DNA of 41,382 bases from Bacillota bacterium (GTDB taxonomy: Bacteria > Bacillota > Sulfobacillia > Sulfobacillales > Sulfobacillaceae), in contig JAIMAE010000008.1 of assembly GCA_023512105.1 (NCBI GenBank), forward strand, positions 1 to 41,382, given 5' to 3'. The position numbers were made by a program, and so were the translations under genes. This document shows, one piece after another, positions 12,137-41,382 of the stretch; position 1 is the stretch's first letter; each line of letters starts with the position of its first letter. Under the pieces are notes generated by a model. That model was given only the letters and a program-made list of their open reading frames with translations. It searched no databases and was not told where the DNA came from.

Positions 12137-12162
12137 AATTTTGTAAAAAGGAGGAGACTTTG

Positions 12163-18573: not shown

Positions 18574-18602
18574 GCAGGGGGAACAGTGGGGAGGCGCGGC
18601 GC

Positions 18603-22218: not shown

Positions 22219-22382
22219 AAGGAGCCGGATGGGTAACGGGCTGGCTGGGGGCCTGTGGCGAGGCTTGGCCGGGCAGGCGGGAGTCCTGTCGACTTCCGTG
22301 GGCCATCCCCAGGCAGCCCGAGACCAAAAGGGCCCTTCTTCCGGACCTTGGACCACGTTCGGAGTGCGTCCTTACGACCTTT

Positions 22383-23240: not shown

Positions 23241-23660
23241 CCCCGTCTTCCTCCTCGGTCGGGCGGCGCTTTTCGCCGACCCTCAAGACTACGGCAATAT
23301 TCTAGCCGATGCAACTCGGGTGCGAACTAAGGCTGGGGGAAGAAATTGTTGGCTCCGTGAGGACAACCAAGGTACGCTTTGGGGCATTTCCCCGCCATGT
23401 TGCGCACCCTGATGTCATGAATCTTGCGCATGGTTCGAGGCCGAGACCTGCCAGAGAAATGAAACAGCCGCAAATGCTCCTAAAAGATGTCTTAGAAACC
23501 GGCCAACCCGGGAGGATTTCCATCAACAGGAGAGAATATAAATATTTGCCCAGGAGATACTTTGTTGGGCCAAATTTCGACGGGCTGGATTTCATAGCAT
23601 CCATATCTCCAGGGAGGCCTAAGCGCCATAAGTTATCAGGCAGGGGGGAATCATTGCGCG
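23241..23660. other. Gene-free region between divergent ctaG and ABC operon
   Basis: About 420 bases with no supported gene. It must contain the promoters of both flanking units, but no clear -35/-10 pair was found. The part from about 23520 is more AT-rich. I looked for TPP, SAM, cobalamin and FMN riboswitch landmarks because the transporter family sometimes has them, and recognised none. Confidence 0.45.
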
Positions 23661-24749: not shown

Positions 24750-24810
24750 CGTCGGTGCCGGCGGGTCTCCCGCCGGCAGCCAGGGTTTGAACAAAGGAGC
24801 AAACGGAGTC

Positions 24811-25662
24811 ATGAGCGACATCACCACCGCCACGCCGTCTTCCTCGCCACTAAATCCCTCCGTGGCGCGCGCAGCCCGGGAACGGCACGAACGACAAAAG
24901 ATGCGCAGCGCGCTCTACTGGCAGCTGGGCTCGATCTTGGTCTTTTTGAGCCTGTGGCAGCTGTCATCCCTCTTCATGGATAAGATCCTGATCTCCAACC
25001 CGGTGCAGATCATCAAAGACTTTGTCCACATCATCGCCGACGGGGTGCTGATCGCCAAGTTTCTCGACAGCATGGGGGAGATGCTGCTGGGCTTTTGCAT
25101 CTCCGCCTGCATTGGGGTCACGCTGGGGATCTTGATGGGGCGGTACAAGACCGTGGAGCGGATTTTCGACCCCTTTGTCAATTTGGCCAACGCCACCCCG
25201 ACCATCGCGCTTTTGCCCCTGATGGAGATCTGGTTCGGATTAGGCCTGTGGGCGCGGATCTCCTTCATCGTAGTCATCTCGATCTGGACGCTGTTGATCA
25301 ACACCTTGGCCGGAATCAAGAACGTGCCGGCCGGCTATCGCGACGTGGGAGTGGCGTTTGGGCTGAGCGAGGTGGAACGCCTGCGCAAGATCGCCGTTCC
25401 CGCCGCTATGCCCTACATCCTCACCGGCGCTCGGGTGGCCTTGGCCCAAGCCGCGGTGGGCATGATCTTGAGCGGGCAGGAGATCGGCGAGGCCGGACTC
25501 GGGGGCCTGACTGAGACCTACGGCTCGTATTACCAGACCGGCCACCTGATCGCCGCCATCATCTCGAGTGCCTGTCTTGCCATCTTTGCCTTCTGGCTGT
25601 TGCGCCGCTTCCAGGCGCGTTTTTACCCCTGGATCCAAGCCGTGGCCGCGACCCGCCGTTAA
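24811..25662 (+). CDS. ABC transporter permease 1 (SsuC/TauC-like)
   Basis: A 283-residue BPD-type permease with about six membrane helices after a hydrophilic Ser/Ala/Arg-rich N-terminal arm of about 35 residues. The EAA loop, which contacts the ATPase, is visible as VPAGYRDVGVAFGLSEVERL followed by RKIAVPAAMPYI. ATG at 24811 follows AAAGGAG and GGAG sites; a start at 24787 would be inside the first of these. It lies 61 bases after the receptor gene. A second, different permease is encoded after the ATPase, so the channel is probably a heterodimer. Confidence 0.9.
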   Translation: MSDITTATPSSSPLNPSVARAARERHERQKMRSALYWQLGSILVFLSLWQLSSLFMDKILISNPVQIIKDFVHIIADGVLIAKFLDSMGEMLLGFCISACIGVTLGILMGRYKTVERIFDPFVNLANATPTIALLPLMEIWFGLGLWARISFIVVISIWTLLINTLAGIKNVPAGYRDVGVAFGLSEVERLRKIAVPAAMPYILTGARVALAQAAVGMILSGQEIGEAGLGGLTETYGSYYQTGHLIAAIISSACLAIFAFWLLRRFQARFYPWIQAVAATRR

Positions 25663-25729
25663 CCTTGCGTGGGCGCCCCATTCAGCGATCACCGAGCAGT
25701 GGACTAATCGATAAGGAGCGACCGAAACG

Positions 25730-26497
25730 ATGCTCAGCATACGCCATGTCAGCAAGGTCTTTGACACCAAGGACCGCGAAGTGCTTGCCCTCCACGACGT
25801 CAACCTGGACATCGAGGAAGGGGAGTTCATCAGTTTTGTGGGGCCTAGCGGGTGTGGAAAAACCACGCTCTTGCGCATCATCGACGGGCTGACCGAACCC
25901 TCGGAAGGCGAGGTCATCTTCAACGGCCAGGTCCTCTCCGGGGTTTCTCGGGAGATGGGCTTTGTCTTTCAGGACATCAACCTCTTGCCCTGGCGCAGCG
26001 TGGTGGAGAACGTGGAGATTGGGCTGGAGGCCCGCGGGGTGGAGAAATCAGAACGCCGCCGCCAGGCGCTGGAGGCGCTTCGGATGGTGGGGTTGGAGCA
26101 GGTGGCCGATGTGCCTCCCTACACCCTGTCGGGAGGCATGCAGCAGCGGGTGGGGGTGGCGCGGGCCTTGGCCATCCGCCCCAAGGTGCTGCTGATGGAT
26201 GAGCCGTTTGGCCATCTCGACAACTTTACCCGCGAGACCTTGCAGATCGAGGTGGCCAAGCTGTGGCAGCAGCTCAAGACCACCATCATCTTCGTGACCC
26301 ACGACGTGGACGAGGCGATTTTCCTATCCACCAGAATTGCCCTCTTCCACAGCAATCCCGGGCGCCTGGCCAAGGTGTTGGAGGTCGACTTGCCGCACCC
26401 CCGATGGGAGTTCAACGTGCGGGCGGATGAGCGTGCGATTGCCATGCGCGAGTACATTCTGGATTACCTCGGAGTGCGGAAGGACGTGATGGTATGA
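25730..26497 (+). CDS. ABC transporter ATP-binding protein (SsuB/TauB-like)
   Basis: A 255-residue ATPase with Walker A GPSGCGKTT (residues 38-46), the Q-loop in GFVFQDINLLPWR, the signature LSGGMQQRVGVARAL near residue 131, Walker B VLLMDEPFGHLD, and the switch His in FVTHDVDEA. The LLPWR segment after the Q-loop is typical of the sulfonate/nitrate/taurine importer family. The two permeases flank it. The downstream permease gene overlaps its stop by four bases (ATGA). Confidence 0.93.
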   Translation: MLSIRHVSKVFDTKDREVLALHDVNLDIEEGEFISFVGPSGCGKTTLLRIIDGLTEPSEGEVIFNGQVLSGVSREMGFVFQDINLLPWRSVVENVEIGLEARGVEKSERRRQALEALRMVGLEQVADVPPYTLSGGMQQRVGVARALAIRPKVLLMDEPFGHLDNFTRETLQIEVAKLWQQLKTTIIFVTHDVDEAIFLSTRIALFHSNPGRLAKVLEVDLPHPRWEFNVRADERAIAMREYILDYLGVRKDVMV

Positions 26498-27321
26498 GTC
26501 AGGCCGAACTGGAAGGCCAGACCCTGCCCCGTCCGCGCCGTCGCAAGGACCAGGAGGGCTGGTGGCAAAAACACGGCATCTCTTTGGTCGCGGTGTTGGT
26601 GTTTTTGGGACTCTGGCAGCTCTCTGGGCTCTTTTTAAACCCGATCTTGCTGTCTACTCCGGTGGCGGTGATTCGCGATTGGTTTCAGATCGCGCTCAAC
26701 GGCTACCTCTTCATTGGCCTTTTAGAGGGCTTTCGGGAGATGTTGATCGGGCTTTTCTTTGGCGTGGTGGTGGGGATCACCGTGGGGATCCTGATGGGCC
26801 GGTATCAGGCGCTCGACCGCATCTTGAGCCCCTACGTCAATTTCTTTAACGCCACGCCCCTGATCGTCATCATCCCCTTGGTCATCATCTGGATTGGGAT
26901 CACCGTCAACGCCCGGATCTTTCTGGTCTTCATGATCACCCTGTGGCCGATGTTGCTGAACACCGTGTCCGGGATCAAGAACGTGCCGAAAGGCTACATG
27001 GAGGTCGGGCAGGCCTTCGGCTTCAGCGAGCGCGAGCTGATTCGCAAGGTGGCCATTCCGGCCGCAGTGCCCTACATCTTGGCCGGGGCGCGGGTGGCGG
27101 CCGGGCTTTCGATCATCGGGATGATCGTGGGTGAGATGGAAATCTCCTTCTTCGGCTTGGGCATGATGTTGTCCACCTATGGGGCGTCGTTCCAAACCGG
27201 CCACTTCTTCGCGGTGGTGCTGACCTCTTCGATCTTCGGCATCGTCAACGTCTCGATTCTGAAGTGGATCCAGCGGCGCTGGTTCCCGTGGATTGCAGGC
27301 ACGGCTGGACAGAACACGTAG
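26494..27321 (+). CDS. ABC transporter permease 2 (SsuC/TauC-like)
   Basis: A 275-residue permease, clearly homologous to the one at 24811 but not a recent copy. About six membrane helices follow a basic N-terminal arm. The EAA loop reads VPKGYMEVGQAFGFSERELI then RKVAIPAAVPYI. Its start overlaps the ATPase stop as ATGA, so the two are coupled. Having both permeases with intact EAA loops argues for a heterodimeric channel rather than a spare copy. The hydrolase-like gene follows within nine bases. Confidence 0.9.
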   Translation: MSQAELEGQTLPRPRRRKDQEGWWQKHGISLVAVLVFLGLWQLSGLFLNPILLSTPVAVIRDWFQIALNGYLFIGLLEGFREMLIGLFFGVVVGITVGILMGRYQALDRILSPYVNFFNATPLIVIIPLVIIWIGITVNARIFLVFMITLWPMLLNTVSGIKNVPKGYMEVGQAFGFSERELIRKVAIPAAVPYILAGARVAAGLSIIGMIVGEMEISFFGLGMMLSTYGASFQTGHFFAVVLTSSIFGIVNVSILKWIQRRWFPWIAGTAGQNT

Positions 27322-27329
27322 GAGGATCC

Positions 27330-29090
27330 GTGTACACGCAACGGTGGGAGACCTCGCGGCGAGAGTACGGGGTGGCGGTGGAGCGCGATGTGGCCATCGC
27401 CATGCCCGATGGCACCCATTTGGTGGGGGACATCTTTCGGCCTGACCGGCCGGGCCGCTACCCGGTGATCCTCGGTTGTCACCCGTACAACAACGAGCTC
27501 CAGACGGCGCCGATTCGACCGATCGGGTACGGACCCCATCGCGGCTTTTTGGAGGCCGGCGACCCGGAATTCTTCGTTCGCCGCGGCTACGTCCACGCCA
27601 TCTTCAATGTCCGGGGAACCGGCAAATCCCAAGGCCTCTACCAGATGATGGGACCCCGGGAGGTGGCGGACGTCGCCTACCTCATCGGGGTATTGGCCAA
27701 CATGCCGTGGTCCTCGGGGCGGGTGGGAATGTTTGGGGTCTCCTACTTCGCATGGCTTCAGGCTCAGGTGGCGGCCGTGCATCCCGAGGGACTGGCCTGC
27801 ATCTTCGCTCCGTTTGGGGCCACCGACTTCTACCGCGACGTCTTCTACCGCGGCGGGATCTTAAATCACCGGTTTTTGGTCCACTGGCTGCACCATGTGG
27901 ACAATCCTCGGCCGTTCAACTGGACGCGGGACCGCTTGGGCGAGCAGAGGTACCGGCAGGCGCTGGCTGAGCTTCGCGACGACGAGGACTTGATGGGGGT
28001 GGAGGCGATTGCCAGGGCCGTCGCCAGCCCCGAGCTGCCCCGCCACCAGCTGCTGCTAGACGTGGTGCTCAATTCCCTAGACGGCGACTACTATCGCGAG
28101 CGCAACGTCAACTACCAGGAGGCGACGGTGCCGGCGGTGGTGGGCGGATGTTGGGGCATGTACGGCCTGCACCTTCCGGGCGGGTTGCGCAGTTTCAGCC
28201 AATGGAAGGGCCCAGCCAGGCTGGTGGTGGGCCCTCCCCTCTACCTCGACCGTCCGGTGTACCAGTATCAGTACTATGCGCTGCGCTGGTTCGATACTTG
28301 GCTAAAGGATCGCGAGGTGGGGATCGGGGAGGAGCCGCCGGTTCAGCTCTTCATTCCTCCCACCGGAGAGTGGCGCTTTGCTCCCAAGTGGCCATTGGAG
28401 GAGACGCGGTGGACCCCCTTCTATCTGCACGAAAGGGGGCTCTTGAGCGAACACGAGTTTTGGCCGGGAGAGGTTCCGACTCGTTATGAGGACTCGACGT
28501 TTCTGCATGGGGAGGCGACGTTTTGGACCCCGCCCTTGGTGGAGGTGACTGAGGTTTGCGGTCCGGTGGCCGTCACGCTCTACGCGGCGACCACCGACCG
28601 CGAGTTACTGCTGTTTGCCACCTTGCTGGTGCGAGGGCAAGACGGAACTGAGGAAGAGTTGACCCGGGGTTGGCTTAGGGCCTCGCAGCGGTTGCTCGAC
28701 CCTTCTAGCCCACCCTGGGCGCCTCACTTGGTGCACAGCCGGCGCGAGATGCTGGTTCCCGGAGAGGTGTACGAGCTGAAGTTCCCTTTGGTGGCCACCG
28801 CCCGTCTACTTCGTCCCGGTGAACAACTGGGCCTGCGCATTAAATCTGCCGATGACGAACCAGCCCGCAACCGGCTGCAACAGGTGGCCCGTGGGGGACT
28901 GTGGAGGCAGACGCCCTCCCGCGTTACCATTTTCCACGACCCCGAGCACCCCTCCGAACTGTTGTTGCCCGTCGTCCGCGGCAACCTCATCGGAACCTTC
29001 CTCTCCGGGGGCGTCTTGCCCAATGTCTCCCCCGGCGGCGAGCCGATGGGGAAAATTGACCGGGCAAAAGAGTGGCGGTCCGACCAATGA
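27330..29090 (+). CDS. CocE/NonD-type hydrolase-like protein with altered catalytic residues
   Basis: A 586-residue protein with the two parts of the CocE/X-Pro dipeptidyl-peptidase group: an alpha/beta-hydrolase domain starting with MPDGTHLVGDIFRP, and from about residue 400 a beta-rich jelly-roll domain. The nucleophile elbow is GVSYF with Ser138 (usually GxSYxG, so one Gly is lost). In the family the Asp is in a GWYD motif and the His in a GPWxH motif; here the matching places read GGCWGMYG (272-279) and VVGPPLYLD (299-307), with neither Asp nor His evident. It may be inactive, a binding protein, or use other residues. GTG at 27330 follows GTAGGAGGA. Position in the ABC operon suggests it acts on, or binds, the imported compound. 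Confidence 0.8.
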   Translation: MYTQRWETSRREYGVAVERDVAIAMPDGTHLVGDIFRPDRPGRYPVILGCHPYNNELQTAPIRPIGYGPHRGFLEAGDPEFFVRRGYVHAIFNVRGTGKSQGLYQMMGPREVADVAYLIGVLANMPWSSGRVGMFGVSYFAWLQAQVAAVHPEGLACIFAPFGATDFYRDVFYRGGILNHRFLVHWLHHVDNPRPFNWTRDRLGEQRYRQALAELRDDEDLMGVEAIARAVASPELPRHQLLLDVVLNSLDGDYYRERNVNYQEATVPAVVGGCWGMYGLHLPGGLRSFSQWKGPARLVVGPPLYLDRPVYQYQYYALRWFDTWLKDREVGIGEEPPVQLFIPPTGEWRFAPKWPLEETRWTPFYLHERGLLSEHEFWPGEVPTRYEDSTFLHGEATFWTPPLVEVTEVCGPVAVTLYAATTDRELLLFATLLVRGQDGTEEELTRGWLRASQRLLDPSSPPWAPHLVHSRREMLVPGEVYELKFPLVATARLLRPGEQLGLRIKSADDEPARNRLQQVARGGLWRQTPSRVTIFHDPEHPSELLLPVVRGNLIGTFLSGGVLPNVSPGGEPMGKIDRAKEWRSDQ

Positions 29091-29365
29091 CTGGTGTGAC
29101 GCGTCGGTATGATACAGCCACGGCGATCCTATTAGGCACCTCGGGCACCAATGGAGGCCAACCACCTGCTTATGGGAGGGAGAGGAATTCAGGTCCTGAT
29201 TTGAGGCCGAGTGGTGTCGGTTTCTCCCTCACCGACCCTTATGGTTCTGCGTTCAGCATCACAGGTTCGGTGCCTGGAGTAATCGGCCGCAGGGCATAAG
29301 GCTTGGCCTGGGCAAGAGAGCGGTTGCGCGCACGAGCGCCAACCCGCGGGCGGACCATTGGTGCA

Positions 29366-30628
29366 CTATGCCCGTTCCGCCACTGGAATCCACTCCACTC
29401 GAGGAGTCCCCTCGAGTTCGAGCGATGCGCGGGGATCGAGTCGGTATCCTACCACCACCGCTTGACTGCGGCCGTAAAGGGCTTCTAACCACTGGGCGCG
29501 TCGACGAGCGCGCTCCACGTCAGACCTATCGACAGTGGTGGAAACCTCGGCTGCAATCCACACCTCGCCCTCGGTATCGCGGGCCCTGGCTACCGCATCG
29601 ATCTGGAGTAACTCTAGACGCTCCTTTTCTCCAATTTTCCCGGCATCCAGAAACTCGTCTAATTGCTCAGCCCAATCCTCTGGAGACAGGCATCGCACCC
29701 TTCGGTACCCCCTGGTCCCCAGGTAGGCCGGTGCCAAGCGGGGGAAGCGAACCTCTAGAAATTGTCCACGAAGGTCGCCAGTCTGAGCCTCCAAACGCGC
29801 AACCCGAGCTTCAAGGCGGGCCTGGGCTTCGGCCAAGGCGTCCAGGCGGGCTTCGGTGCGCTTCAGCGCCTCGGCCAGTTCCTGCAGCCGCGCTTCAGTC
29901 CGGGTCTGGGCTTCGGCCAAGGCGTCCAGGCGGGCTTCGGTGCGAGCCTGCGCCTCGGCCAGTTCCTGCAACCGCACTTCAGTCCGGGCCTGGGCTTCGG
30001 CCAACTCCTGGAGGCGGGCTTCGGTGCGAGCCTGCGCCTCGGCCAGTTCCTGCAACCGCGCTTCAGTCCGGGTCTGGGCTTCGGCCAAGGCGTCCAGGCG
30101 GGCTTCGGTGCGCTCCTGCGCCTCGGCCAGTTCCTGCAGCCGCGCTTCAGTCCGGGTCTGGGCTTCGGCCAACTCCTGGAGGCGGGCTTCGGGGCGAGCC
30201 TGCGCCTCGGCCAGTTCCTGCAACCGCACTTCGGTCCGGGTCTGGGCTTCGGCCAACTCCTGGAGGCGGGCTTCGGGGCGAGCCTGCGCCTCGGCCAATT
30301 CCTGCAACCGCGCTTCAGTCCGGGCCTGGGCTTCGGCCAGGGCGTTGAGGGGCGAGGTCAAACTCTGTAGCGCCGCCTCGGTATGCTCGTGTTGCACCCG
30401 CATCGTTTCTAACAGCGCCTCGAACCGAGCCTCCAGATGCACCACGGTCTCGCCCAGGGACGCGAGCAACGTTTCGGTTTGACGCTGGGATTCGGCAATT
30501 GAACGGACTAATTCCGGCAGCGCCAACAAGTCCTCATTCAGGAGAACGCGTCTCAACTCCCGTTGCCATTCCGGATGGGCCTCTAAAAAGTGGAGCAAAT
30601 CATGGAAATCCCCGACATCAAAGGACAA
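29366..30628 (-). CDS. Coiled-coil repeat protein with nuclease-like C-terminal domain
   Basis: A 420-residue protein of unknown function. Residues 1-93 are helical. Residues 94-275 are 13 tandem 14-residue units of the form LQELAEAQARTEAR (two heptads each), predicting one long coiled coil. The C-terminal 145 residues form a compact domain with GQFLEVRFPRLAPAYLGTRG, then LQIDAVARA and a strand WIAAEVSTTV. The spacing of D and E-x-S resembles the PD-(D/E)xK-like folds found in the DUF3782-type proteins common in cyanobacteria and thermophiles, with Ser/Thr where Lys would be expected. The TTG start has GGAGGTGA seven bases upstream on this strand. The function may be DNA-related, but this is a guess. 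Confidence 0.8.
   Translation of the reverse strand: MSFDVGDFHDLLHFLEAHPEWQRELRRVLLNEDLLALPELVRSIAESQRQTETLLASLGETVVHLEARFEALLETMRVQHEHTEAALQSLTSPLNALAEAQARTEARLQELAEAQARPEARLQELAEAQTRTEVRLQELAEAQARPEARLQELAEAQTRTEARLQELAEAQERTEARLDALAEAQTRTEARLQELAEAQARTEARLQELAEAQARTEVRLQELAEAQARTEARLDALAEAQTRTEARLQELAEALKRTEARLDALAEAQARLEARVARLEAQTGDLRGQFLEVRFPRLAPAYLGTRGYRRVRCLSPEDWAEQLDEFLDAGKIGEKERLELLQIDAVARARDTEGEVWIAAEVSTTVDRSDVERARRRAQWLEALYGRSQAVVVGYRLDPRASLELEGTPRVEWIPVAERA
29804..30349 (-). repeat. Tandem 42-bp coding repeats (13 units)
   Basis: Thirteen consecutive 42-bp units encode the 14-residue coiled-coil repeats. The units fall into LQEL and LDAL types with small changes (T/A/E before RTEAR, and RPEAR in two units), and several neighbouring pairs are nearly identical over 84 bp. 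Such DNA is prone to gain or loss of units by slippage, and to assembly error with short reads. Confidence 0.9.
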
Positions 30629-30680
30629 GTCACTTCACCTCCCTCCATTGCCTCCAGTGTTTAGCATAGCACAGAAAAAT

Positions 30681-30695
30681 GACAGGATTCCTGTC
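30681..30695. promoter_or_regulatory. Inverted repeat upstream of the coiled-coil gene
   Basis: GACAGG and CCTGTC form a perfect 6-bp inverted repeat with a three-base centre, 53 bases upstream of the TTG start in an AT-rich stretch. It could be an operator. No convincing -35/-10 pair was found beside it. Confidence 0.3.
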
Positions 30696-30752
30696 TAATT
30701 TCATCATTGAGTCAACCGGCTTGTGCAGACTCTGGCAACCTTCCAGGGGTGC

Positions 30753-30920
30753 TCACCTGCGGCGTCGGACATGATGGTCAGAGTCTCTGCGCGTCTGCAG
30801 CGTCCCGGAACTTATTCGGCTTGAGCGGGAGCGTAGGCCTACCAAAACGCCCAGCGCCAGGATGATAGCGTCTAAGGCGACGGCCAAGGCAAGCCAGGTA
30901 TTAAAGTTCGGAGTCATCAT
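30753..30920 (-). CDS. Small single-pass membrane protein
   Basis: A 55-residue open frame starting with two Met codons. Residues 7-28 form one strongly hydrophobic helix (TWLALAVALDAIILALGVLV), followed by a basic, Arg/Ser-rich tail ending HHVRRRR. On this strand GGAGGGAG lies about ten bases ahead of the ATG. The hydrophobic block plus positively charged tail is what a short inner-membrane protein would show, and chance frames here are usually not so patterned. It runs in the same direction as the coiled-coil gene, 124 bases upstream of it. No family was recognised. Confidence 0.5.
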   Translation of the reverse strand: MMTPNFNTWLALAVALDAIILALGVLVGLRSRSSRISSGTLQTRRDSDHHVRRRR

Positions 30921-32104
30921 TGTAGGGGTCTCCCTCCAGAGGGTGCTGTTAGACTCTACACGCCCCGTCCCAGTGAGGAAGTATCGTCTCGGTTATGAGG
31001 CAGTGAGGTTCGGTTGTGTGTGGTTGACCACCTCCAATTGCGCCCCTGTGAGGAATTGATGGGATAGACTATGCCGTTCACAGGCAAGTAGAATCCACCA
31101 TGGCGAGCCGTCTTTGGCTACTAATAATACTGGCACTGTCGTGGCATGGCTTGGTCCGGGGAGGGCAAGCTTGGCCGCCACGGAAAGACGTTCTCGGCGG
31201 AGTTGTCCATGCTAGAGGGTATCCCTTCGCGTCGAACACTCCCTTTGGTGGTCATGTGACGGCCAGGGAGGGGGAGTACGCGCAGGAGCCCCCTTAGCCG
31301 TCCAAGGGCTGTAGGCGGTTTTTTACCGAAGATGACCGGGATGGGGTTGAATTGGGCCGTCATGCAAGGCTCCGGGCTCAACGCGCAACAGACGGTCATG
31401 GTCGTCACCGTGCTTACGCCAGGGCCCTGCTCGGCCAAGTGGCACGCTTGCCCCGTTTGTCTCCCGGTGGGGGTTTGCCTCTGGGTTCGCATTGATAGTC
31501 GCTGGGCATCCCGCTCAGACCTTGGTAACGACGGCCCGGTCCTAGACAGAAAGGGGATGCCAAAGGGCAAGACCGACACGTGTTTCGCAGTGGGGAACGG
31601 TAGGATTGCAAGCGATTCCCCCTAGGCTTCCTGCTACCCCATGCGATTCTTCCACGATGGACGCGGTGCCGAACGCCACTTGACGACAGAGTGAGAAGCA
31701 TCACCGCAAAGCCTCTCGGTCCCGCGGGAGTGAACTCCGCCGTCACCGCATGGTTGCAGTCACACCTTGGAGGTCGCCCTCCCCCGGGACCTTCCGCCTC
31801 CTTGCCGGGGAGCTACCCCGACAAGGCACAGGAGGACTAGGCGGATCAGGCGGGGAGGCTTCGCGACCAGGGTTCTGTGCGGGGCGAGGCCTACCGACGG
31901 CGCCGTAGGCTCTGGTTGGCAGGGCTTTCGGCGCCAAGTGTTAATGGTCGGTCCCCTAAGTTCGCTCCCTGGTGGTGCCGGGTTGGGGGCAAGCCGCAGC
32001 CGGAGACCGCGCCTTGTGGACCTGGAGTTGGTGGCGGCCAGCGAACGACCGGAGGGATTCTCGCGGACCACTGTCCGCCACCAGCGGAAACGCGTGGAGC
32101 TTCC
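30921..32104. other. Gene-free stretch of about 1.2 kb
   Basis: Several short open frames exist on both strands (the longest about 150 codons on the minus strand at 31121-31579), but none combines a ribosome binding site, sensible composition and a recognisable protein. Base composition is more even than in the flanking genes. It may be the remains of decayed genes or a mobile element. No inverted-repeat ends, tRNA or transposase motif was found by eye. Confidence 0.5.
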
Positions 32105-33070
32105 TCAAGACGGATTCCAGGTTAAAAAGCCCATGCCGACTCCGGTGCCGGCCGGGGAGCGATAAGCGGGGACGTAGTCGACCAGTTGAGGGGAGAAATC
32201 AGCCAGCGCGGATGCAACGGTAATCCAGGCGCGAAGCTCCGAGGTACCGGCGGTCAGCAGCCCCGGGTCAAGCTTGCGCAAGTTCTCCGGCCGACCGTCT
32301 AAGATGGCGTCTAAGACTTGGTGATCCAACCCCTCATCGATTCCCCAATGCGTTAGTCCCCCCGAAGCCACCAAGGCAATGCGCTTGTTCTCCGGCCATT
32401 CGGCGATGCCTTGGGCCAAAGCCTTGCCTAGCTGCCAGCACCGTTCGGGTGATGGCTTGTTCGGGGGGTAGTGGGCGTTGACAATCACCGGAAGGATGGG
32501 AATGTGGGTGGGAAGACCTAGTCGCCGACGCACGAAGGTAAAGGAATGACTGAGTGGGCGGCCGGGGATTTGTTGAGAGAATTGGCTCACGTCAAAGTCC
32601 AGTCCGCTTAGATGCCTGACCAGATGACGGCCGAGGTCGGGTAGCGCCGGGTAGGGGTCCGGGGCGTTATTATGCCAAGCCCAGAGACCGGGGCGATACG
32701 CCGGGGCCACCCGTTCTGGGGGAATCGGAAGGTCCCAAATCACCTCGCCGCAGAAGACGGCCAGGGCCGGTTGGCCTTCGGGGCCCCAAAGCTCGTCTTG
32801 GTCGTCTCCGACCACCACCACGACATCGGGGGCGGCGGCCTTCAGGTGTTGCCCTAAACGGCTGATCGCATCCTGACAAGCCTGATACTTGGCCTGCCAC
32901 CGCTCCAGGGTCACCTCGTCGGCGAGACGGGCGGCATTTTCGGCCAGCAAGGCCTCGTAGGGGACGGTCGGGTTGGTTCGGTCGAGTGCTCCGAGGTCGG
33001 TCCAAAGTTCGGGCGAGATGCTCAGCTGGGGACTGTGCGATGAGGCCAGCCCAGTGACGATATCCGCCAT
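32105..33070 (-). CDS. Second LigB-family extradiol dioxygenase
   Basis: A 321-residue paralogue of the dioxygenase at 17617, sharing the start (MADIVTGLASSHSPQLS versus MADIVLGVGTSHSPQLN), the VVGDDQDELW block, LSHSFTFVRRRL, the NAHYPPNKPSPERC stretch, ASGGLTH and the end VDYVPAYRSPAGTG. His12 is kept. At the second-ligand region it reads GDDQDELW, so even the His that follows Gln in the first copy is replaced by Asp. Ring cleavage of a catechol-type acid is the family activity. AAGGAGG precedes the ATG on this strand. The gene stands alone, divergent from the small genes at 33468. Confidence 0.85.
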   Translation of the reverse strand: MADIVTGLASSHSPQLSISPELWTDLGALDRTNPTVPYEALLAENAARLADEVTLERWQAKYQACQDAISRLGQHLKAAAPDVVVVVGDDQDELWGPEGQPALAVFCGEVIWDLPIPPERVAPAYRPGLWAWHNNAPDPYPALPDLGRHLVRHLSGLDFDVSQFSQQIPGRPLSHSFTFVRRRLGLPTHIPILPVIVNAHYPPNKPSPERCWQLGKALAQGIAEWPENKRIALVASGGLTHWGIDEGLDHQVLDAILDGRPENLRKLDPGLLTAGTSELRAWITVASALADFSPQLVDYVPAYRSPAGTGVGMGFLTWNPS

Positions 33071-33168
33071 CGTATACCTCCTTAGTCGCGCTGGAACTGA
33101 CAAGGCCGGGGCCGGTGAGTGACGGGTTCGATATTCGCCCAGGACCATGATCGGCGACTGCACCTTCT

Positions 33169-34176: not shown

Positions 34177-34496
34177 CGTCCCTGCGAGCGGACTTTACGT
34201 CGTGGCGCCTTAACCTGCCCTGAAGGCCCTCCGTACCTGGGAGATCTTCCCCTCCAGCCAAGTCCACCATGCCTGCTCCCCGTTGAGGCGAAGTCCGATT
34301 GGGAAGCCGCCGGAGTCTGTGCCAGACCGGGTGGCGGACCATCCAAAATAGACAGAAAAGCGAATAGAGATATAACCAATCGAACTGGCTTCCCTGCGTC
34401 ATTTGACCTTACGATTGCCTCCAATCTGTGATATTCTTACCAGAAAATGGTGTGCGACGTGCTTGGCCCTGGATGGGCAAGAGGGAGAGTGGCCGC
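34177..34496. other. Gene-free gap before the amidase operon
   Basis: About 320 bases. The second half is AT-rich and contains TTGACC at 34403-34408 and TATTCT at 34432-34437, too far apart (23 bases) to form a normal promoter. The transcription start of the following operon is probably here, but no specific site can be supported. Confidence 0.45.
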
Positions 34497-35294
34497 ATGG
34501 AGGTCTTTGCGCGGCGAGTATCCGGGCATAAGGGGGTTCCCGCTTATCTCGCCTTGCCAGATCGGAAGGGCCCCACCCCGGTGGTGGTGTTGTTGCACGA
34601 GCGGTACGGCCTGGTCCGCCACACCGAGGACTTGGCCGGCCGCTTGGCCTCCGCAGGCTACGCGGTGCTGGCGCCCGACTTGTTCTATGACCATCCCAAC
34701 CTGGAAGCCCTGCACGCCGGTCGGGTGACGTTTCACCCCAGCGACCGGGAGGTGGTCGAAAAGATCGAAGACGCGCTGACCGCTTTAGAGGGTGTTCCCG
34801 GGGTGGACGTTGCGCGGCTGGGCATGATCGGCGTCTGCCAGACCGGCCGCCATCCGTTTGCCTGGGGCGCGGTTCATCCCCTGTCGGCCTGTGCGGTGTT
34901 CTACGGGGCCGCTCAGCGGAGGGACTGGGAGGTCACGGAGGCTCAACCCCACGGTATGGAGGGCCTGATTGCCGCCGTACCCTGCCCGGTGTTAGGGATT
35001 TTTGGGGAAAAAGACCACGTGATCTCGATCCAGGACGTCCTGCGATTTCGCGATGCGCTGGAACGCTACTGCAAGTCCTACACCATCCGGCTCTATGCCG
35101 ATGCGCCGCACGGCTGGTTGAACGACACCATGCCCGGCCGCTACCGCCCGCATCTGGCCGCCTTGGCCTGGCAGGCCTTACTCGATTTCCTGCAGGACAC
35201 CTTACAAGGGGCGCCTGTGGACACGATTCAGTGGCAGTTTGTGAGCGAGCATCACCCCGACTACGACTTTGGCAAGAACGTACGCCTGGAATAG
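34497..35294 (+). CDS. Dienelactone hydrolase family protein
   Basis: A 265-residue alpha/beta hydrolase. Dienelactone hydrolases open lactones formed during aromatic breakdown and use a Cys-His-Asp triad. Here Glu35 is in LLHERYG, Cys114 in GVCQTGRH, Asp173 in FGEKDHV and His205 in ADAPHGW, so the whole set is present. The elbow GVCQTG differs slightly from the usual GxCxGG. ATG at 34497 has AGAGGGAGAG upstream; an ATG at 34473 is a less supported alternative. It opens a plus-strand run of eight close genes, and the next gene starts three bases after its stop. The actual substrate is unknown. Confidence 0.83.
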   Translation: MEVFARRVSGHKGVPAYLALPDRKGPTPVVVLLHERYGLVRHTEDLAGRLASAGYAVLAPDLFYDHPNLEALHAGRVTFHPSDREVVEKIEDALTALEGVPGVDVARLGMIGVCQTGRHPFAWGAVHPLSACAVFYGAAQRRDWEVTEAQPHGMEGLIAAVPCPVLGIFGEKDHVISIQDVLRFRDALERYCKSYTIRLYADAPHGWLNDTMPGRYRPHLAALAWQALLDFLQDTLQGAPVDTIQWQFVSEHHPDYDFGKNVRLE

Positions 35295-35297
35295 GGG

Positions 35298-35963
35298 GTG
35301 AGGGGGGTGGAGTGGGACCGAAACGCTTTACATCGCCTAGACCCTGCCCGCACCGCCTTGGTGCTCTTCGACGTGTTAACCGCCTACCTCCACCCGGCGG
35401 ATCCGGTAAAGGCGGCGGTGTTGGCCGAGCGTCAACTGCTGGCTCGCTTGCAGGCGCTTTTAGAAGACTGTCGCCGTCAGGGGGTGTGGGTCTGCTACAC
35501 CTGCGCGGCCCATAGCCCGGATGGGGGAGACGTGGTGGCGCGCTTGACGGATACCGACATGGACCTCCGCCCTTGGAGCGACGCACCGCGTCCGTTCCGC
35601 CCAGAAGTCCATCGAGGAGAACCCGGGGCGGCCATCGCCGAGGAGTTGACCCCGCGGCCCGGGGAGTTGGTCCTCCCCAAGTACCGTTGGAGTGCTTTCT
35701 ACCAAACTGCCCTGGAGTTGCAGCTTCGGGCCCGTGGGCTTGACACCATCATCTTGGCCGGGATGTCGACCGACGTGGGGATTGCCAGCACCGCCTTTTC
35801 TGCGCGAGACCGAGACTTTGGAATGGTGGTGGCACGCGATGCCTGTTGGTCCCACCGGGGGCCGAATCACGACTTCTTGATGGATCGCGTCTTTCCCCGC
35901 ATGGCCAGGGTGCGGACGGTAGCGGAGATTCGGACCATGTGGAAGGAGGAAGCCCGCCGGTGA
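35298..35963 (+). CDS. Isochorismatase-fold protein lacking the nucleophile Cys
   Basis: A 221-residue protein of the isochorismatase/cysteine hydrolase fold. Asp25 (LVLFDVLTAY) and Lys128 (LPKYRWSAF) are in place, but the residue expected to be the Cys nucleophile is Gly161 in MSTDVGIASTAF. True isochorismatases such as EntB and PhzD also have Gly there and hydrolyse a vinyl ether without a covalent intermediate, while amidases of the fold need Cys. So this one is unlikely to be an amidase. GTG at 35298 is used, with GTG at 35307 as an alternative. It overlaps the SDR start by four bases (GTGA). Confidence 0.83.
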   Translation: MRGVEWDRNALHRLDPARTALVLFDVLTAYLHPADPVKAAVLAERQLLARLQALLEDCRRQGVWVCYTCAAHSPDGGDVVARLTDTDMDLRPWSDAPRPFRPEVHRGEPGAAIAEELTPRPGELVLPKYRWSAFYQTALELQLRARGLDTIILAGMSTDVGIASTAFSARDRDFGMVVARDACWSHRGPNHDFLMDRVFPRMARVRTVAEIRTMWKEEARR

Positions 35964-36721
35964 ACAGGGAGGAGGCAAGTCCGGAGGGCCGTCCGGTGGC
36001 AGTAGTCACCGGAGCCGCCAAGGGGATTGGGCGTGCCATCGCCGAGCGTCTGGGGAGCGACGGATGGGCGCTCGTGCTGTGGGATGTCTTGGGCGAAGGC
36101 GCCGCGGTAGCCGCCCGGCTGCGGGAACAAGACATCCCGGCCCGCTTCGAGCAGGTGGACGTCTCCGATGAGGAGGCGATTTTGGCGGCGATCTCCAGTT
36201 GGCCGGTGGGCTGGAGGAAGGTGCGGGGATTGGTCAACAACGCCGGCATCTTTCCTCGGAGCGAGGCGCTCTCGATGTCCTCGGCGGTGTGGAACCGCGT
36301 GCTGGCGGTGAACCTGACCGGCGCGTTTCTCTGCAGCCGAGCCCTCGCCCCCCTGATCTTGGCCCAGGGGCAGGGGGCGATCGTCAACCTGGCCTCGGGC
36401 CGAGCCTATGCCGGGGCCAAGTTGGGCTGTGCCTATGCGGCCTCCAAAGCCGGCATACTGGGTCTCACCCGCTCGTTGGCGTTGGAGTGGGCACCGGCGA
36501 TCCGGGTCAACTGCGTGGTCCCCGGGGTGACCGACACGGATCAGCCGCGGGAGGCTGGGATCGACGATGCCACCTTGTATGCTCGGGGGGCCTCGATTCC
36601 GCTGGGCCGCATTGGACGCCCCGACGATGTCGCCAAGGGGGTGGCGTTCTTACTCGGCCCGGATGCCGAGTACATCACCGGACAGGCCTTGTTCATCAAT
36701 GGGGGAGCCCTGATGGGATAA
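35960..36721 (+). CDS. Short-chain dehydrogenase/reductase
   Basis: A 253-residue classical SDR. The cofactor site is TGAAKGIG (residues 17-24), NNAG is at 93-96, the catalytic Ser is probably Ser146 in NLASGRAY, and YAASK provides Tyr159 and Lys163. The C-terminal ITGQALFINGGA is the family ending. WD at 41-42, at the end of the second strand, favours NAD(H) over NADP(H). The substrate is unknown; an alcohol or dihydrodiol intermediate of the operon's pathway is likely. GTG at 35960 overlaps the previous stop (GTGA), and the MFS gene follows after 84 bases. Confidence 0.88.
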   Translation: MNREEASPEGRPVAVVTGAAKGIGRAIAERLGSDGWALVLWDVLGEGAAVAARLREQDIPARFEQVDVSDEEAILAAISSWPVGWRKVRGLVNNAGIFPRSEALSMSSAVWNRVLAVNLTGAFLCSRALAPLILAQGQGAIVNLASGRAYAGAKLGCAYAASKAGILGLTRSLALEWAPAIRVNCVVPGVTDTDQPREAGIDDATLYARGASIPLGRIGRPDDVAKGVAFLLGPDAEYITGQALFINGGALMG

Positions 36722-36805
36722 CGGCACTCCGGCTGACCAGAGGGGCGCGAAGTCCGCGCATCGTCACCCGGATGCCCGGTGGAGGGAAGAGATAGGGGGG
36801 AGAGC

Positions 36806-38068
36806 GTGAGTTCGGTCCAATCGGTTTCGCCGATGCCGGTCGGGCGGGCGCGGGTGCGATGGACCCGCGTCGGCCCCGCCTTGTTTGTGGCCACTGCGGT
36901 GGCGCAGATCGACAAGATCAGCATCGCGGTGGTGATCGCCAACGCCGCCTTCCTGCGGACGATGGGGCTGGTGGGGCATCCGGCGGTGGTGGGGGCGCTG
37001 GTGACCGCCTTTTTGGCCGCGTATGGAGTGGGATTGTTTATCTGGGGCTTTTTGATTGACGCCTTGGGCCCCCGGCGGGCGGCGGTCATCGCAGTGATTT
37101 TGTGGAGCGTGATGCTGGCCTGGGGAGGGCTTTCCACGTCGCTGGGCGAGCTTTTCGCCTCGCGCATCGGGCTCGGGCTGACCGAGGGCATTCTCTTTCC
37201 GGTCTGCAACGCCTTTGTGGCCCGATGGTTTCCCTGGTCGGAACGCGGACGCGCGCAGTCGTTCTGGTTTAATGGGGCCACCATCGGGGCGGCGGTGGGA
37301 GGCGCGGTGGCCACGGCCTTAATCGTGGCCGCCGGATGGAGGGCCATGTTCCTGGTGCTGGCGGTGGCCGGGTTGGTGATCGTGGTCCCCATGCTGTGGT
37401 GGCTCACTCGGGACGACCCCGACTCCGACCCCCGGGTCAGCGAGGCGGAGCGCCAGGAGATCCGGGCCCAGGTGGCGCGACCGCCGGCTCGGCCAGTCGG
37501 GGAGGTGCTCCGGGATTACCGGTATTGGCTGCTGGTGTTGGCGTTTACCCTGAACAACATCTTCTTCTGGGGCTGGCAGTCGTGGATGCCCACCTACCTC
37601 ATCCACGCCCGCCACTTCTCGTTTGCCGCCGCCGGTGGGGTCACCGCCTTGATGTTCGCGCTGGAGGTGATCGCGGTGGTGGCGATGGCCGCGGCCACCG
37701 ACCGCATCGGACGCCGGGCTTGGTGGGGAGCGTTGGGGTTCGCCGCGGCGGCGGTGGGACTGTTTGTCGGGGGACATGTTCCGGCGTTGGGGGTAGGGGT
37801 GGCGATCATGATCCTGGGCCTGTGCGGGCAACAGGCCAGCGCAGGCAACACCCAGTCGCTGATCCACAGCTTCAGCGACGCCCGTTCGATGGGCAAGGCG
37901 GCGGGAATCCTCAACGCCGTGGCCAACTTGGCCTCGGCCTTTGCCCCGGCGCTTATCGGGGCGATGATTGGGCTTCACAGCACGTTCTCAGGCGTGCTCT
38001 GGTTTTTGTCGTTGGTCCTGTTGGCGGCGGCCTTGTCGACGGCCTTGCTGGCCCCGAGCGGCTATTAG
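36806..38068 (+). CDS. MFS transporter (anion:cation symporter-like)
   Basis: A 420-residue, 12-helix major facilitator protein that looks like the ACS/GudP-type organic-acid symporters. The first helix contains AQIDKISIAVVI, loop 2-3 reads GFLIDALGPRR, and WFPWSERGRAQSFWFNG is the family's motif near helix 4-5. The second half has ATDRIGRRAWWG. Import of the pathway substrate is inferred from its place between the SDR and the first amidase cassette. GTG at 36806 follows GGGGGGAGAG; a frame open from 36779 has no better site. The next gene starts 64 bases downstream. Confidence 0.87.
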   Translation: MSSVQSVSPMPVGRARVRWTRVGPALFVATAVAQIDKISIAVVIANAAFLRTMGLVGHPAVVGALVTAFLAAYGVGLFIWGFLIDALGPRRAAVIAVILWSVMLAWGGLSTSLGELFASRIGLGLTEGILFPVCNAFVARWFPWSERGRAQSFWFNGATIGAAVGGAVATALIVAAGWRAMFLVLAVAGLVIVVPMLWWLTRDDPDSDPRVSEAERQEIRAQVARPPARPVGEVLRDYRYWLLVLAFTLNNIFFWGWQSWMPTYLIHARHFSFAAAGGVTALMFALEVIAVVAMAAATDRIGRRAWWGALGFAAAAVGLFVGGHVPALGVGVAIMILGLCGQQASAGNTQSLIHSFSDARSMGKAAGILNAVANLASAFAPALIGAMIGLHSTFSGVLWFLSLVLLAAALSTALLAPSGY

Positions 38069-38132: not shown

Positions 38133-38834
38133 ATGGCGGTTTGGGATGGCATCATTCCCGACCACGACCTGGCGGTATATCAGGCGGCGCAGTTTGGCGA
38201 GCGGATGGAGATGGGTAACCACCCGGCCTTGGTCATCGTCGACGTGCTATGGGCCTTTGTCGGCCCGCGGGTTGACACCTTATCGGCGATAGCCGAATAC
38301 CCCACCGCCTGCGGGGCGGTGGGATGGGAGGCAATGGAGCGGATTCGCTGGCTGCTCGACCGGTTTCGGGCCCACGGCCTGCCGGTCGTCCACGTGAAGG
38401 CCGGCAGCGACCCTCAGGCCTTTGGCGGGACCACCAAGCGCCCCACCGGCTACCGCGACCCTCGGGCCTACGAATTTCCCGAACTGGTGGCGCCGGTGGC
38501 GGGAGAGCCGGTGGTGGTGAAGAGCAAGGCCAGCGGGTTTTTCCGCACTCCGCTCGATGTCTTGTTGCACAAGCGGGGGGTGGACACGGTGCTGATCGCC
38601 GGCTCGACCACCTCGGGCTGCATTCGCGCCACCGCGGTGGACGCCCACTCGCTGGGGTTTGCCACCGTGGTGCTGGAGGACGGGGTGTTCGACCGCTCCC
38701 CCTTCTCCCATGCGGTGTCGCTGTTCGAACTGCAGATGAAGTACGCCCAGGTGCTTTCGGTCGAGCAGGCTTGGCAACTATTGGAGGCGCGAGGGATGGT
38801 TTCCGGGATGCGCGGGGAGGAGAGCCATGTCTGA
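38133..38834 (+). CDS. Isochorismatase-fold amidohydrolase, cassette copy 1
   Basis: A 233-residue cysteine hydrolase of the N-carbamoylsarcosine amidase/maleamate amidase type. The triad is complete: Asp37 in LVIVDVLWAF, a Lys in VVKSKASGFF (Lys130 or Lys132), and Cys163 in GSTTSGCIRATA. The non-proline cis-peptide region and the TTSGC motif match members that hydrolyse linear amides or carbamoyl groups. The ATG has GGGGGAGAGGG upstream. Its end overlaps the PuuE-like gene by eight bases. It resembles the protein encoded at 39808 in motif and context, forming the first of two cassettes. Confidence 0.87.
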   Translation: MAVWDGIIPDHDLAVYQAAQFGERMEMGNHPALVIVDVLWAFVGPRVDTLSAIAEYPTACGAVGWEAMERIRWLLDRFRAHGLPVVHVKAGSDPQAFGGTTKRPTGYRDPRAYEFPELVAPVAGEPVVVKSKASGFFRTPLDVLLHKRGVDTVLIAGSTTSGCIRATAVDAHSLGFATVVLEDGVFDRSPFSHAVSLFELQMKYAQVLSVEQAWQLLEARGMVSGMRGEESHV

Positions 38835-39705
38835 GTTCGCACGCTATCCCTACCGCGCCATCGTGGACCACCCGCCGTTTCGGTGGCCCGAGGAGGCGCG
38901 GGTGGCGGTGTGGATCATCCCCAACGTCGAGTACTTTCCGTTCGCGGGGCCCGGCGCGGTGATCAACGAACGGACCGCATCGTTTCGCCCCGACGTGGTC
39001 AACCACAGCTGGCGCGACTACGGGATTCGGGTGGGGTTCTGGCGCCTCGTGGACTGCTTGGACCAGGCCCGGGTGCCGGTGACGGCGGCCTTAAACAGCT
39101 TGGTTTGCGACCATTACCCGCAGGTGGTGGAGGCCGGGGTCCGCCGCGGCTGGGAGTGGATGGGGCACGGGGAGACCAATTCCCGTTGGTTGGTCGGACT
39201 GGAGGCGGAGGAAGAGGCCGCGCTGATTGCCCGGGTGCGGGGCCGGATCGCCGAGGCCACTGGAAAGCCGCCGTCAGGATGGCTGAGCCCGGGTTTGAGC
39301 GAGACCGAGCGAACCCCGGAGCTCTTAAGGCAAGCGGGCGTGGAATATGTGGCCGACTGGGTGGCGGACGAGGTGCCGTTTTGGATGCAGACGGCGCACG
39401 GCCCGCTCCTGGCGCTTCCCTATTCGATCGAAATCAACGACATGGAGCTGATCTTGCGGCAACGCCGCTCCGGTCCAGAGTTCCGCGAGCGGCTGATCGA
39501 CCAGTTTGAGCAACTGTGGCGGGATGGCGACCGGGTGGCCCGGGTGATGGCGATCGCGCTACATCCCTTTCTGATCGGCCAACCCCATCGGATTCGCTAC
39601 CTCGCCGAGGTGTTGGACTACCTGAGAAGCCATAACGGGGTGTGGTTTGCCACCGGGAGCGAGATTGCCCGCTACTACCGGGAACGGTTTGGAGAGAACC
39701 TTTAG
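38827..39705 (+). CDS. Polysaccharide deacetylase-fold protein, PuuE/cyclic-imide-hydrolase-like, copy 1
   Basis: A 292-residue protein of the NodB-fold branch that includes PuuE-type allantoinase and cyclic imide hydrolases, which open cyclic amides rather than deacetylate sugars. Landmarks are VAVWIIPNVEYFPF, WRDYGIRVGFWR, MGHGETNSRW, GWLSPGLSET, a DW-x3-DE-x-PFWM region and ALHPFLIGQPHR near the end. The canonical TFDD motif of chitin deacetylases is absent (NVE there), as in PuuE. The ATG overlaps the amidase gene by eight bases, which supports successive action: ring opening, then linear-amide hydrolysis. The substrate is not known. Confidence 0.8.
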   Translation: MSEFARYPYRAIVDHPPFRWPEEARVAVWIIPNVEYFPFAGPGAVINERTASFRPDVVNHSWRDYGIRVGFWRLVDCLDQARVPVTAALNSLVCDHYPQVVEAGVRRGWEWMGHGETNSRWLVGLEAEEEAALIARVRGRIAEATGKPPSGWLSPGLSETERTPELLRQAGVEYVADWVADEVPFWMQTAHGPLLALPYSIEINDMELILRQRRSGPEFRERLIDQFEQLWRDGDRVARVMAIALHPFLIGQPHRIRYLAEVLDYLRSHNGVWFATGSEIARYYRERFGENL

Positions 39706-39807
39706 CGCGCTGGCCGATGCGCGGTCAGACCTTCTTCCCGCAGTGGGCGGAAGCGGTTGTCGTCCAAACCGAACACCGAAGGGGTTGTGCACAAGGAGGT
39801 TGTCCTT

Positions 39808-40461
39808 ATGGCAGAGGACTCGATGGAGGCGTTTTTTGCCGCGAGAGGATTTGGCCGGACCATTGGATTTGGGGAGAAGTCAGCGCTCTTGGTGATCGAC
39901 ATGGTGCGAGCCTTTACCAATCCGGAACTGCCGCTCGGGGCGCCGCTGGACCGCCAGATCGAGGTCATCCGCGAGCTGTTGGCGGTGGCTCGGGAGCGGG
40001 AGATCCCGATCTTCTACACCTCCGTGGCCTACGAGGACCGCGATCTGGCCGATGCGGGCATTTGGGCGTTAAAGCAGGCCGGGATCATGACCCTGCGGGC
40101 GGGCACGTCCGAGGTGGAAGTCGACGAGCGACTGGGACGGCGGCCCGAGGAGCCGGTGATCTTCAAAAAGTACGCTTCGGCGTTCTTCGGCACCGACCTC
40201 TTGACCCGCCTTAACACCCGCCGCGTCGACACCCTGATCGTCACCGGTTGCACCACCAGCGGCTGTGTTAGAGCCACCGCCGTCGACGGTCTGCAAAATG
40301 GCTTTCGGGTGATGGTGGTGCGAGAGGCGGTGGGGGACCGGGCCGCGCCGGCTCATGAACAAAGTCTCTTTGACCTGCAGGCCAAGTACGCCGATGTGGT
40401 CTCGGCGCAAGCGGTGGTGGCCTATTGGAAGAAGGCCGGCGGGCTGGCGAGTGGGCATTAG
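39808..40461 (+). CDS. Isochorismatase-fold amidohydrolase, cassette copy 2
   Basis: A 217-residue cysteine hydrolase of the N-carbamoylsarcosine amidase/maleamate amidase group. The triad is Asp31 (LLVIDMVRAF), Lys121 (VIFKKYASAF) and Cys153 (TGCTTSGCVRATA). Its C-terminal SLFDLQAKYADVVSA matches SLFELQMKYAQVLSV of copy 1. AAGGAGGT precedes the ATG. It begins about 100 bases after the first PuuE-like gene and is followed after 42 bases by the second. Several of its segments, for example FYTSVAYEDRDLADAG, resemble maleamate amidases more than copy 1 does. Confidence 0.88.
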   Translation: MAEDSMEAFFAARGFGRTIGFGEKSALLVIDMVRAFTNPELPLGAPLDRQIEVIRELLAVAREREIPIFYTSVAYEDRDLADAGIWALKQAGIMTLRAGTSEVEVDERLGRRPEEPVIFKKYASAFFGTDLLTRLNTRRVDTLIVTGCTTSGCVRATAVDGLQNGFRVMVVREAVGDRAAPAHEQSLFDLQAKYADVVSAQAVVAYWKKAGGLASGH

Positions 40462-40503
40462 CTCGGAGGTGAATTGGGCATGGGGTTGAAGGAGGGATAG
40501 GGC

Positions 40504-41382
40504 GTGGATAACACCTTGTACCGCTATTCGCCGATGATTCGCCGACCGCGCATTGAGTGGCCGCACGGGGCGCGGCTTGCGGTCTGGATCGGACTGAATG
40601 TCGAACATTACCAGCTCGACAAACCTTCCACCAGCATTCATGGAGCCACCGCCACCCTGGTACCGGACCCCTTAAATTACGGATGGCGGGACTATGGACC
40701 GCGGGTCGGGATCTGGCGCCAGATGGAGATCTTTGACAAGTTCGGAATTCGGGCCAGCGTACTGCTCAACGCCGACGTCTGCCACCACTACCCGGAGATC
40801 ATCGAAGAAGGCAATCGGCGTCATTGGGTGTGGTTGGCGCACGGCAAAAACAATTCCATCCTCGAGGCCAACCTGTCGGAGGTAGAGGAGCGGGCGTATT
40901 TAACCGAGGTGGTGGCGACCATTCGCGAGGCCACCGGCACCGCACCGCGCGGATGGTTGGGCCCGGCGTTGAGCGAGACCTTCGCCACTCCGAAAATCTT
41001 GGGCGAGCTCGGCATCACCTATCTCTGCGACTGGTGTGCGGATGACCAGCCGTTTCCGCTCAACACCCCCCATCGGATGATCTCGGTGCCTTACTCGATC
41101 GAGGTCAACGACATCCCTCTGTTTGTAGGGAAAAGCTACTCCGGGGAGGAGTTCTACCAGCTTTTGGTGGACCAGTTCGAGGTGCTGTACGCCGAAGGAG
41201 CCCGGTCGGGACGGGTGATGGCGATTGCCCTGCACCCGTTTGTCACCGGGGTGCCGTTCCGGGCCAAGTACCTGGAGAAGGCTTTGGCCTATATGGCCGA
41301 GCGCCCATACGTGTGGTGGGCCACCAGCGACGAGATCGCCGACTGGTACTTTGCGCACTACTACGACGAAGCCGTGCGGAGC
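40504..41382 (+). CDS. Polysaccharide deacetylase-fold protein, PuuE/cyclic-imide-hydrolase-like, copy 2 (cut at window end)
   Basis: The frame runs open from GTG at 40504 through 293 codons to the end of the window, so almost the whole protein is present and the stop lies beyond. GAAGGAGGG is upstream of the start. It parallels the protein at 38827 along its whole length: ARLAVWIGLNVEHY, WRDYGPRVGIWR, LAHGKNNSI, GWLGPALSET, DWCADDQPF, PYSIEVNDI and ALHPFVTGVPFR. The divergence is large, so the duplication is old and the two enzymes may prefer different ring substrates. What follows downstream is unseen. Confidence 0.8.
   Translation, partial: MDNTLYRYSPMIRRPRIEWPHGARLAVWIGLNVEHYQLDKPSTSIHGATATLVPDPLNYGWRDYGPRVGIWRQMEIFDKFGIRASVLLNADVCHHYPEIIEEGNRRHWVWLAHGKNNSILEANLSEVEERAYLTEVVATIREATGTAPRGWLGPALSETFATPKILGELGITYLCDWCADDQPFPLNTPHRMISVPYSIEVNDIPLFVGKSYSGEEFYQLLVDQFEVLYAEGARSGRVMAIALHPFVTGVPFRAKYLEKALAYMAERPYVWWATSDEIADWYFAHYYDEAVRS

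Follow-up and report, generated by a model that had tools for sequence, protein, structure and literature searches.

Two neighbouring gene pairs at the end of a 41,382-nucleotide contig of a Bacillota bacterium (family Sulfobacillaceae; assembly GCA_023512105.1, contig JAIMAE010000008.1; hereafter the window) may encode two versions of a hydrolytic route for cyclic imides. Each pair joins an isochorismatase-fold gene to a gene for a PuuE-like protein of the NodB fold, and the four genes lie head to tail between positions 38133 and 41382 in the order iso2, puu1, iso3, puu2. We propose that each pair forms a two-step module. The PuuE-like enzyme would hydrolyse the ring of a small cyclic imide (or amide), leaving a carboxylic acid half-amide. 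Cleavage of this half-amide by the isochorismatase-fold enzyme, via a cysteine thioester, would then yield a dicarboxylic acid and ammonia. In the second pair, puu2 would open a phthalimide-type aromatic imide to a phthalamate-type half-amide, from which iso3 would release phthalate and ammonia, and phthalate genes of the same genome could carry phthalate on to protocatechuate. The iso2/puu1 pair, which diverged earlier, would serve a related imide as a second module. Imide opening followed by half-amide cleavage is probable, and phthalimide is our best single guess for iso3/puu2; the whole scheme, with both substrate assignments, falls just short of an even chance.

The fold, the catalytic residues, the gene order, the linkage, the association of relatives with phthalate clusters and the phthalate-type genes of the same genome are all read from sequence. 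From these we infer every substrate, the order of the steps and the roles of four upstream genes, which encode a major facilitator superfamily (MFS) transporter, a short-chain dehydrogenase (SDR), a dienelactone-hydrolase (DLH) family protein and a further isochorismatase-fold protein, iso1.

Organisation of the two gene pairs

All four cassette genes are on the forward strand. iso2 (38133..38834, ATG start) encodes a predicted isochorismatase-fold cysteine amidohydrolase, the partner of puu1 (38827..39705), a predicted PuuE-like NodB-fold ring-opening hydrolase whose gene it overlaps by 8 bp. After 102 bp follows iso3 (39808..40461), an isochorismatase-fold hydrolase akin to a phthalate-cluster protein, presumably PatE, encoded on plasmid pRHL2 of Rhodococcus RHA1. 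The iso3 open reading frame (ORF) opens at 39757, with a likely start at the ATG at 39808. Its partner puu2 (40504..41382), predicted to be a ring-opening hydrolase of the same type as puu1, follows after a gap of 42 bp and runs off the contig end without a stop codon. Both iso genes match Isochorismatase (Pfam PF00857; 1.1e-30 for iso2, 4e-36 for iso3), and Polysacc_deac_1 (PF01522) is matched by puu1 at 3e-10 and by puu2 at 6e-5, which is at the cut-off.

An initial annotation, made from the letters of the window, had described two consecutive, near-contiguous but divergent pairs of the same gene order. The ORF coordinates agree with this, and identity is 43-45% between puu1 and puu2 and 33% between iso2 and iso3. 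The MFS, SDR and lactone hydrolase genes it placed upstream are likewise present (Pfam), and the catabolic setting is supported; it had missed iso1 (35298-35963) and the position of the cassette at the end of a catabolic island. The same genome holds a further PuuE-like gene on contig C139, 46-47% identical to puu1; in this locus (L023, 2614-6239) its neighbours are of VOC type and FAH type, and no isochorismatase accompanies it.

Fold and catalytic residues

In a PDB search, puu1 found the PuuE structures 1z7a (1.8e-33) and 3cl6 (1.1e-30). An AlphaFold2 model of puu2 (predicted local distance difference test score 95) fits PuuE (3cl6) best, with a template modelling (TM) score of 0.82, followed by uncharacterised members of the same group and then by the Helicobacter pylori protein 3qbu (0.74); deacetylases of carbohydrate esterase family 4 (CE4) reach about 0.6 or less. 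As PuuE allantoinase opens a cyclic amide, this proximity of fold supports ring opening by the puu proteins. The Asp-His-His metal triad of NodB (motifs TFDDG and HxxxH) is not conserved in the PuuE-like family, where it is replaced by the invariant residues N32, E34, H113 and N117 (puu2 numbering). PuuE likewise binds no metal (HP0310 paper).

Two family assignments were rejected. puu1 (148 bits) and puu2 (120 bits) stay far below the curated cut-off of the PuuE allantoinase family (NCBIfam TIGR03212, 424.6) and branch apart from PuuE in the tree, which argues against true allantoinases. An ordinary polysaccharide deacetylase was set aside on grounds of both fold and motif.

On the isochorismatase side, the positions of the Asp-Lys-Cys catalytic triad are conserved by alignment in iso2 (TTSGC) and in iso3. 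iso2 is 61% identical to the partner protein of Pseudonocardia locus L031, 37% to the maleamate amidase NicF (3ot4/3uao) and 33-36% to PatE. For iso3, N-carbamoylsarcosine amidase (1nba, 39%) is not the closest characterised relative, as identity to the pRHL2 protein (PatE) is 47-50%.

Linkage and co-divergence in other genomes

The linkage of PuuE-like and isochorismatase genes is real and far above chance. Among the matches listed, we considered the best 80 PuuE relatives in other genomes. An isochorismatase gene lies within 500 bp on the same strand in 29 of these loci, mostly with gaps of -50 to +44 bp; 8 further loci have a partner within 3 kb, and one has it farther off. Partner choice follows type: puu1-like genes are adjacent to iso2-like partners only (12/12), and puu2-like genes to iso3-like partners in 14 of 17 cases. 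The distance matrices of the two families correlate over 39 pairs (Mantel r 0.81), a value reached in 0 of 2000 permutations.

The tree places puu1 in a four-member clade with three actinobacterial proteins, all encoded beside an iso2-type gene (support 100/99), and puu2 in a clade of 17 rows (support 100/99) that includes PuuE genes of phthalate clusters. Pseudonocardia acidicola K10HN5 carries both types of cassette on separate contigs (L031, in which two pairs surround a homologous MFS gene, and L087), so the modules are separable. An amidase-signature enzyme takes the place of the isochorismatase near the PuuE-like gene of Aminobacter (L111), of a Rhizobium plasmid (L121) and of the archaeon Haloglomus (L101). 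Such a replacement supports an amide as product or intermediate.

The haloarchaeal PuuE-like gene of L101 starts at 8001 and ends at 8873, and the amidase-signature gene follows directly. Tandem PuuE-PuuE doublets occur on the plasmids pJE1 of Sphingomonas (L120, 9983-11820) and pMK-2 of Rhizobium (L121, 9989-11832), one with genes for isopropylmalate dehydratase and HMG-CoA lyase, the other with amidase and MFS genes.

Association with phthalate degradation

Plasmids of Gordonia, Rhodococcus, Kocuria and Microbacterium carry puu2-type genes together with genes for a CSHase-like protein, an MFS transporter, a reductase, a Rieske dioxygenase and a protein of the class II aldolase fold. In Microbacterium and Gordonia this last protein scores 385-390 bits as the 3,4-dihydroxyphthalate decarboxylase PhtC, against a curated cut-off of 200 bits. 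PhtC exceeds this cut-off near puu2-type genes of Actinomycetes (L066), Pseudonocardia (L092), Rubrobacter (L058), Domibacillus (L051) and Pseudarthrobacter (L110) and of plasmids L112 and L113, and is borderline in Rhodospirillales (L045). In the Pseudonocardia genome with L031 and L087, PhtC lies beside a phthalate-type Rieske dioxygenase and a dihydrodiol dehydrogenase.

The best PDB match of iso3 is 26st (2.7e-59). The aligned stretch of 26st shares 100% identity with a protein on pRHL2, whose gene lies between ABC transporter genes and phthalate 3,4-dioxygenase genes of Rhodococcus RHA1. From this gene order we take the protein to be PatE, a phthalate half-ester hydrolase; its counterpart on pRE1 of A. 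keyseri is PehA. PatE was reportedly shown, in work of Hara et al. from 2010, to cut monoalkyl phthalate esters. The half-ester and the half-amide of phthalate are nearly isosteric, which makes phthalamate hydrolysis by an enzyme of the PatE type plausible. A gene in an island of this kind in R. opacus M213 carries the published annotation 'phthalate ester hydrolase (isochorismatase hydrolase)'. The name N-carbamoylsarcosine amidohydrolase, given to PatE-type genes in phthalate clusters (L131, 8995-9660; L113, 13660-14316) and to 26st itself, is probably misleading.

The genome of the window holds PhtC once above the cut-off, on contig C99 (281 bits), and none of its 100 relatives does (101 genomes searched, including that of the window). 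Its neighbours there are a Rieske oxygenase with a putative phthalate 4,5-dioxygenase as its closest match and a dehydrogenase that most resembles 4,5-dihydroxyphthalate dehydrogenase. PhtC above the cut-off is present in 10 of the 34 puu2-side genomes (6 of the 10 in the puu2 clade) and in all three genomes of the nearest puu1 relatives, while the 25 remaining puu1-side genomes include just one with it. These counts are small and partly non-independent, with L032 and L061 being near relatives.

With these data the initial annotation can be revised. The PuuE-like fold it assigned is confirmed by the comparison of TM scores, and its proviso that the cassette might be unlinked in all relatives is refuted by the adjacent pairs in other genomes. 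It had proposed a complete but unnamed pathway for an imide, hydantoin, ureide or N-heterocycle. The PhtC clusters and the kinship with the RHA1 hydrolase narrow this range for iso3/puu2, while 'complete' is not borne out, as the phthalate dioxygenase, dehydrogenase and decarboxylase genes are on contig C99.

Observations against the phthalimide scheme

Several observations weigh against the proposed scheme. An isochorismatase gene is out of reach in about half of the best 80 loci. Within the window, the cassette has no phthalate gene beside it, and PhtC is on another contig of a metagenome-assembled genome (MAG) of 404 contigs. PatE is a more distant relative of iso3 than the Rubrobacter-type partner is (64-65%), and puu2 and iso3 may thus lack one common history. 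Most PhtC-bearing plasmids of Rhodococcus and Arthrobacter, including those of RHA1 and A. keyseri, have no close PuuE despite a PatE-type gene. Given the reported action of PatE on monoalkyl phthalate esters, an ester role for iso3 is possible. Finally, the Beijerinckiaceae relatives of puu1 have no PhtC above the cut-off, which makes the substrate of puu1 less certain. On three Rhodococcus plasmids (R. pyridinivorans pGZ01, L118, 12001-12838; R. ruber; AH-ZY2), the PuuE match is split into two pieces and lacks a listed gene, which may mean that PuuE is decaying on these plasmids, possibly as a frameshifted relic.

Alternative substrates

The same two-step chemistry could act on aliphatic or pyridine-derived imides of the succinimide, maleimide or glutarimide type, with no link to phthalate. 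This is an unlikely reading, albeit a serious one: NicF is about as close to iso2 as PatE is, the fungal HxnM/HxnN system is a glutarimide route (PMC9304392) and many genomes with puu-type genes lack PhtC. The association of PhtC with the puu2 clade and with the window's own genome is what speaks for an aromatic imide instead.

A ureide or hydantoin route, in which the ring opened by puu resembles hydantoin or allantoin and iso strips an N-carbamoyl group, appears more improbable still. It would agree with allantoinase as the closest fold, with the identity of iso3 to N-carbamoylsarcosine amidase and with a PucR-type regulator by the Pseudonocardia L031 pairs. However, the puu proteins score far under the PuuE family cut-off and form a separate branch, no purine genes were seen near the cassette, and iso3 is closer to PatE than to the carbamoylsarcosine enzyme.

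We give little credence to a phthalate diester route, in which the NodB-fold protein would cleave one ester bond of a dialkyl phthalate, leaving the monoester for the PatE-like enzyme to cut. The kinship of iso3 with a phthalate-cluster hydrolase would fit, esterases do occur within the NodB fold, and PMC6362181 mentions phthalate hydrolases that carry a CSHase domain; against this, the overall fold of puu2 is closer to PuuE than to esterases, and amidase-signature amidases stand beside the PuuE protein in some relatives. That the PuuE-like proteins are ordinary polysaccharide deacetylases in a metabolically meaningless pairing is highly improbable, since only the Pfam name favours it, whereas the fold is much nearer to PuuE than to CE4 enzymes, the metal triad is not conserved and the linkage is both conserved and co-diverging.

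Upstream genes and origin of the cassette

The genes directly upstream are all on the forward strand. The MFS transporter (36779..38068; PF07690) has as its best NCBIfam match a D-galactonate transporter model, below the cut-off of that model. It is likely the importer of the substrate; in Pseudonocardia L031, a homologue (477 bits) is flanked by the two iso-puu pairs. The SDR gene (35957..36721; PF13561, 1.2e-57; start inferred) is preceded by iso1 (35298..35963; PF00857, 1.5e-36), a YecD-like isochorismatase-fold protein. Like YecD, its best PDB match (1j2r), iso1 has a glycine at the position of the catalytic cysteine (STDVG, as opposed to TTSGC). It is thus probably no cysteine hydrolase, perhaps a non-hydrolytic or structural partner in the cluster. 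The DLH family protein (34428..35294; PF01738, 2.2e-34) lies upstream of iso1.

The cassette stands at the end of a catabolic island that starts at about 9.5 kb and whose genes before the DLH gene (9539..33163) encode an amidohydrolase-2 protein, a Rieske oxygenase that has a putative phthalate 4,5-dioxygenase among its best PDB matches, LigK/RraA-type aldolases, two dioxygenases of the LigB type, an FAD hydroxylase, a Rieske alpha/beta dioxygenase, a NitT-type ABC transporter and a CocE/NonD hydrolase. The two LigB-type extradiol dioxygenase genes (17581-18573 and 32105-33163) are on opposite strands, and RraA-type aldolase genes lie in tandem (15176-17507).

Two genes at the start of the contig, ruvB and a sporulation-type sigma-I gene (sigI), point to a Bacillota host. 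G+C drops from 68% in that part to 61-64% in the island, and a sequence search found no close PuuE cassettes in 100 relatives of the window's genome. Together, the lower G+C and the absence from relatives make horizontal gain likely. Plain contamination of the MAG was thought less likely, with ruvB and sigI on the same contig.

Significance and comparison with known systems

Phthalimide and related imides arise from the breakdown of fungicides and drugs. In the open literature, with subscription papers mostly outside the search, we found neither a gene set for their breakdown nor a direct description of the iso/PuuE pair. A bolder version of our proposal is that the PuuE-like/PatE-like cassette, added to phthalate clusters and borne on actinobacterial plasmids, provides a genetic basis for the mineralisation of phthalimide by bacteria, and that the two versions in this organism are tuned to two aromatic imides; this we regard as tentative and on balance doubtful. 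If our main proposal is right, the pair would be a two-gene marker from which imide breakdown could be read in genomes, and an auxiliary gene of known phthalate clusters would gain a function. Genes now called polysaccharide deacetylase and N-carbamoylsarcosine amidohydrolase would need renaming, and a breakdown route for which we found no described genes would have a testable gene assignment.

Among known systems, NicF and N-carbamoylsarcosine amidase have the fold and triad of iso2 and iso3, but they are only 27-39% identical to them, and their substrates are products of other pathways. PatE and PehA are closer to iso3, sharing its catalytic triad, the level of identity given above for the RHA1 protein and the cluster type of its relatives. 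iso3 differs in having a PuuE-like partner, which the RHA1 and A. keyseri stretches examined do not have. PuuE allantoinase (3cl6, 1z7a) shares with the puu proteins the fold, the family-conserved active-site histidine and an expected small cyclic substrate, yet identity is 25-27%, the scores remain under the family cut-off and the gene context is different. The closest parallel in logic is the cyclic imidase HxnM with the amidase HxnN of A. nidulans (PMC9304392). HxnM is structurally closest to H. pylori 3qbu, a protein related to cyclic imidases of the HxnM and P. putida YZ-26 type that puu2 matches less well than PuuE, and the word isochorismatase is absent from that paper. Nevertheless, HxnM and HxnN convert an imide to a half-amide and then to a diacid and ammonia, the same two-step logic that we propose for the cassette.

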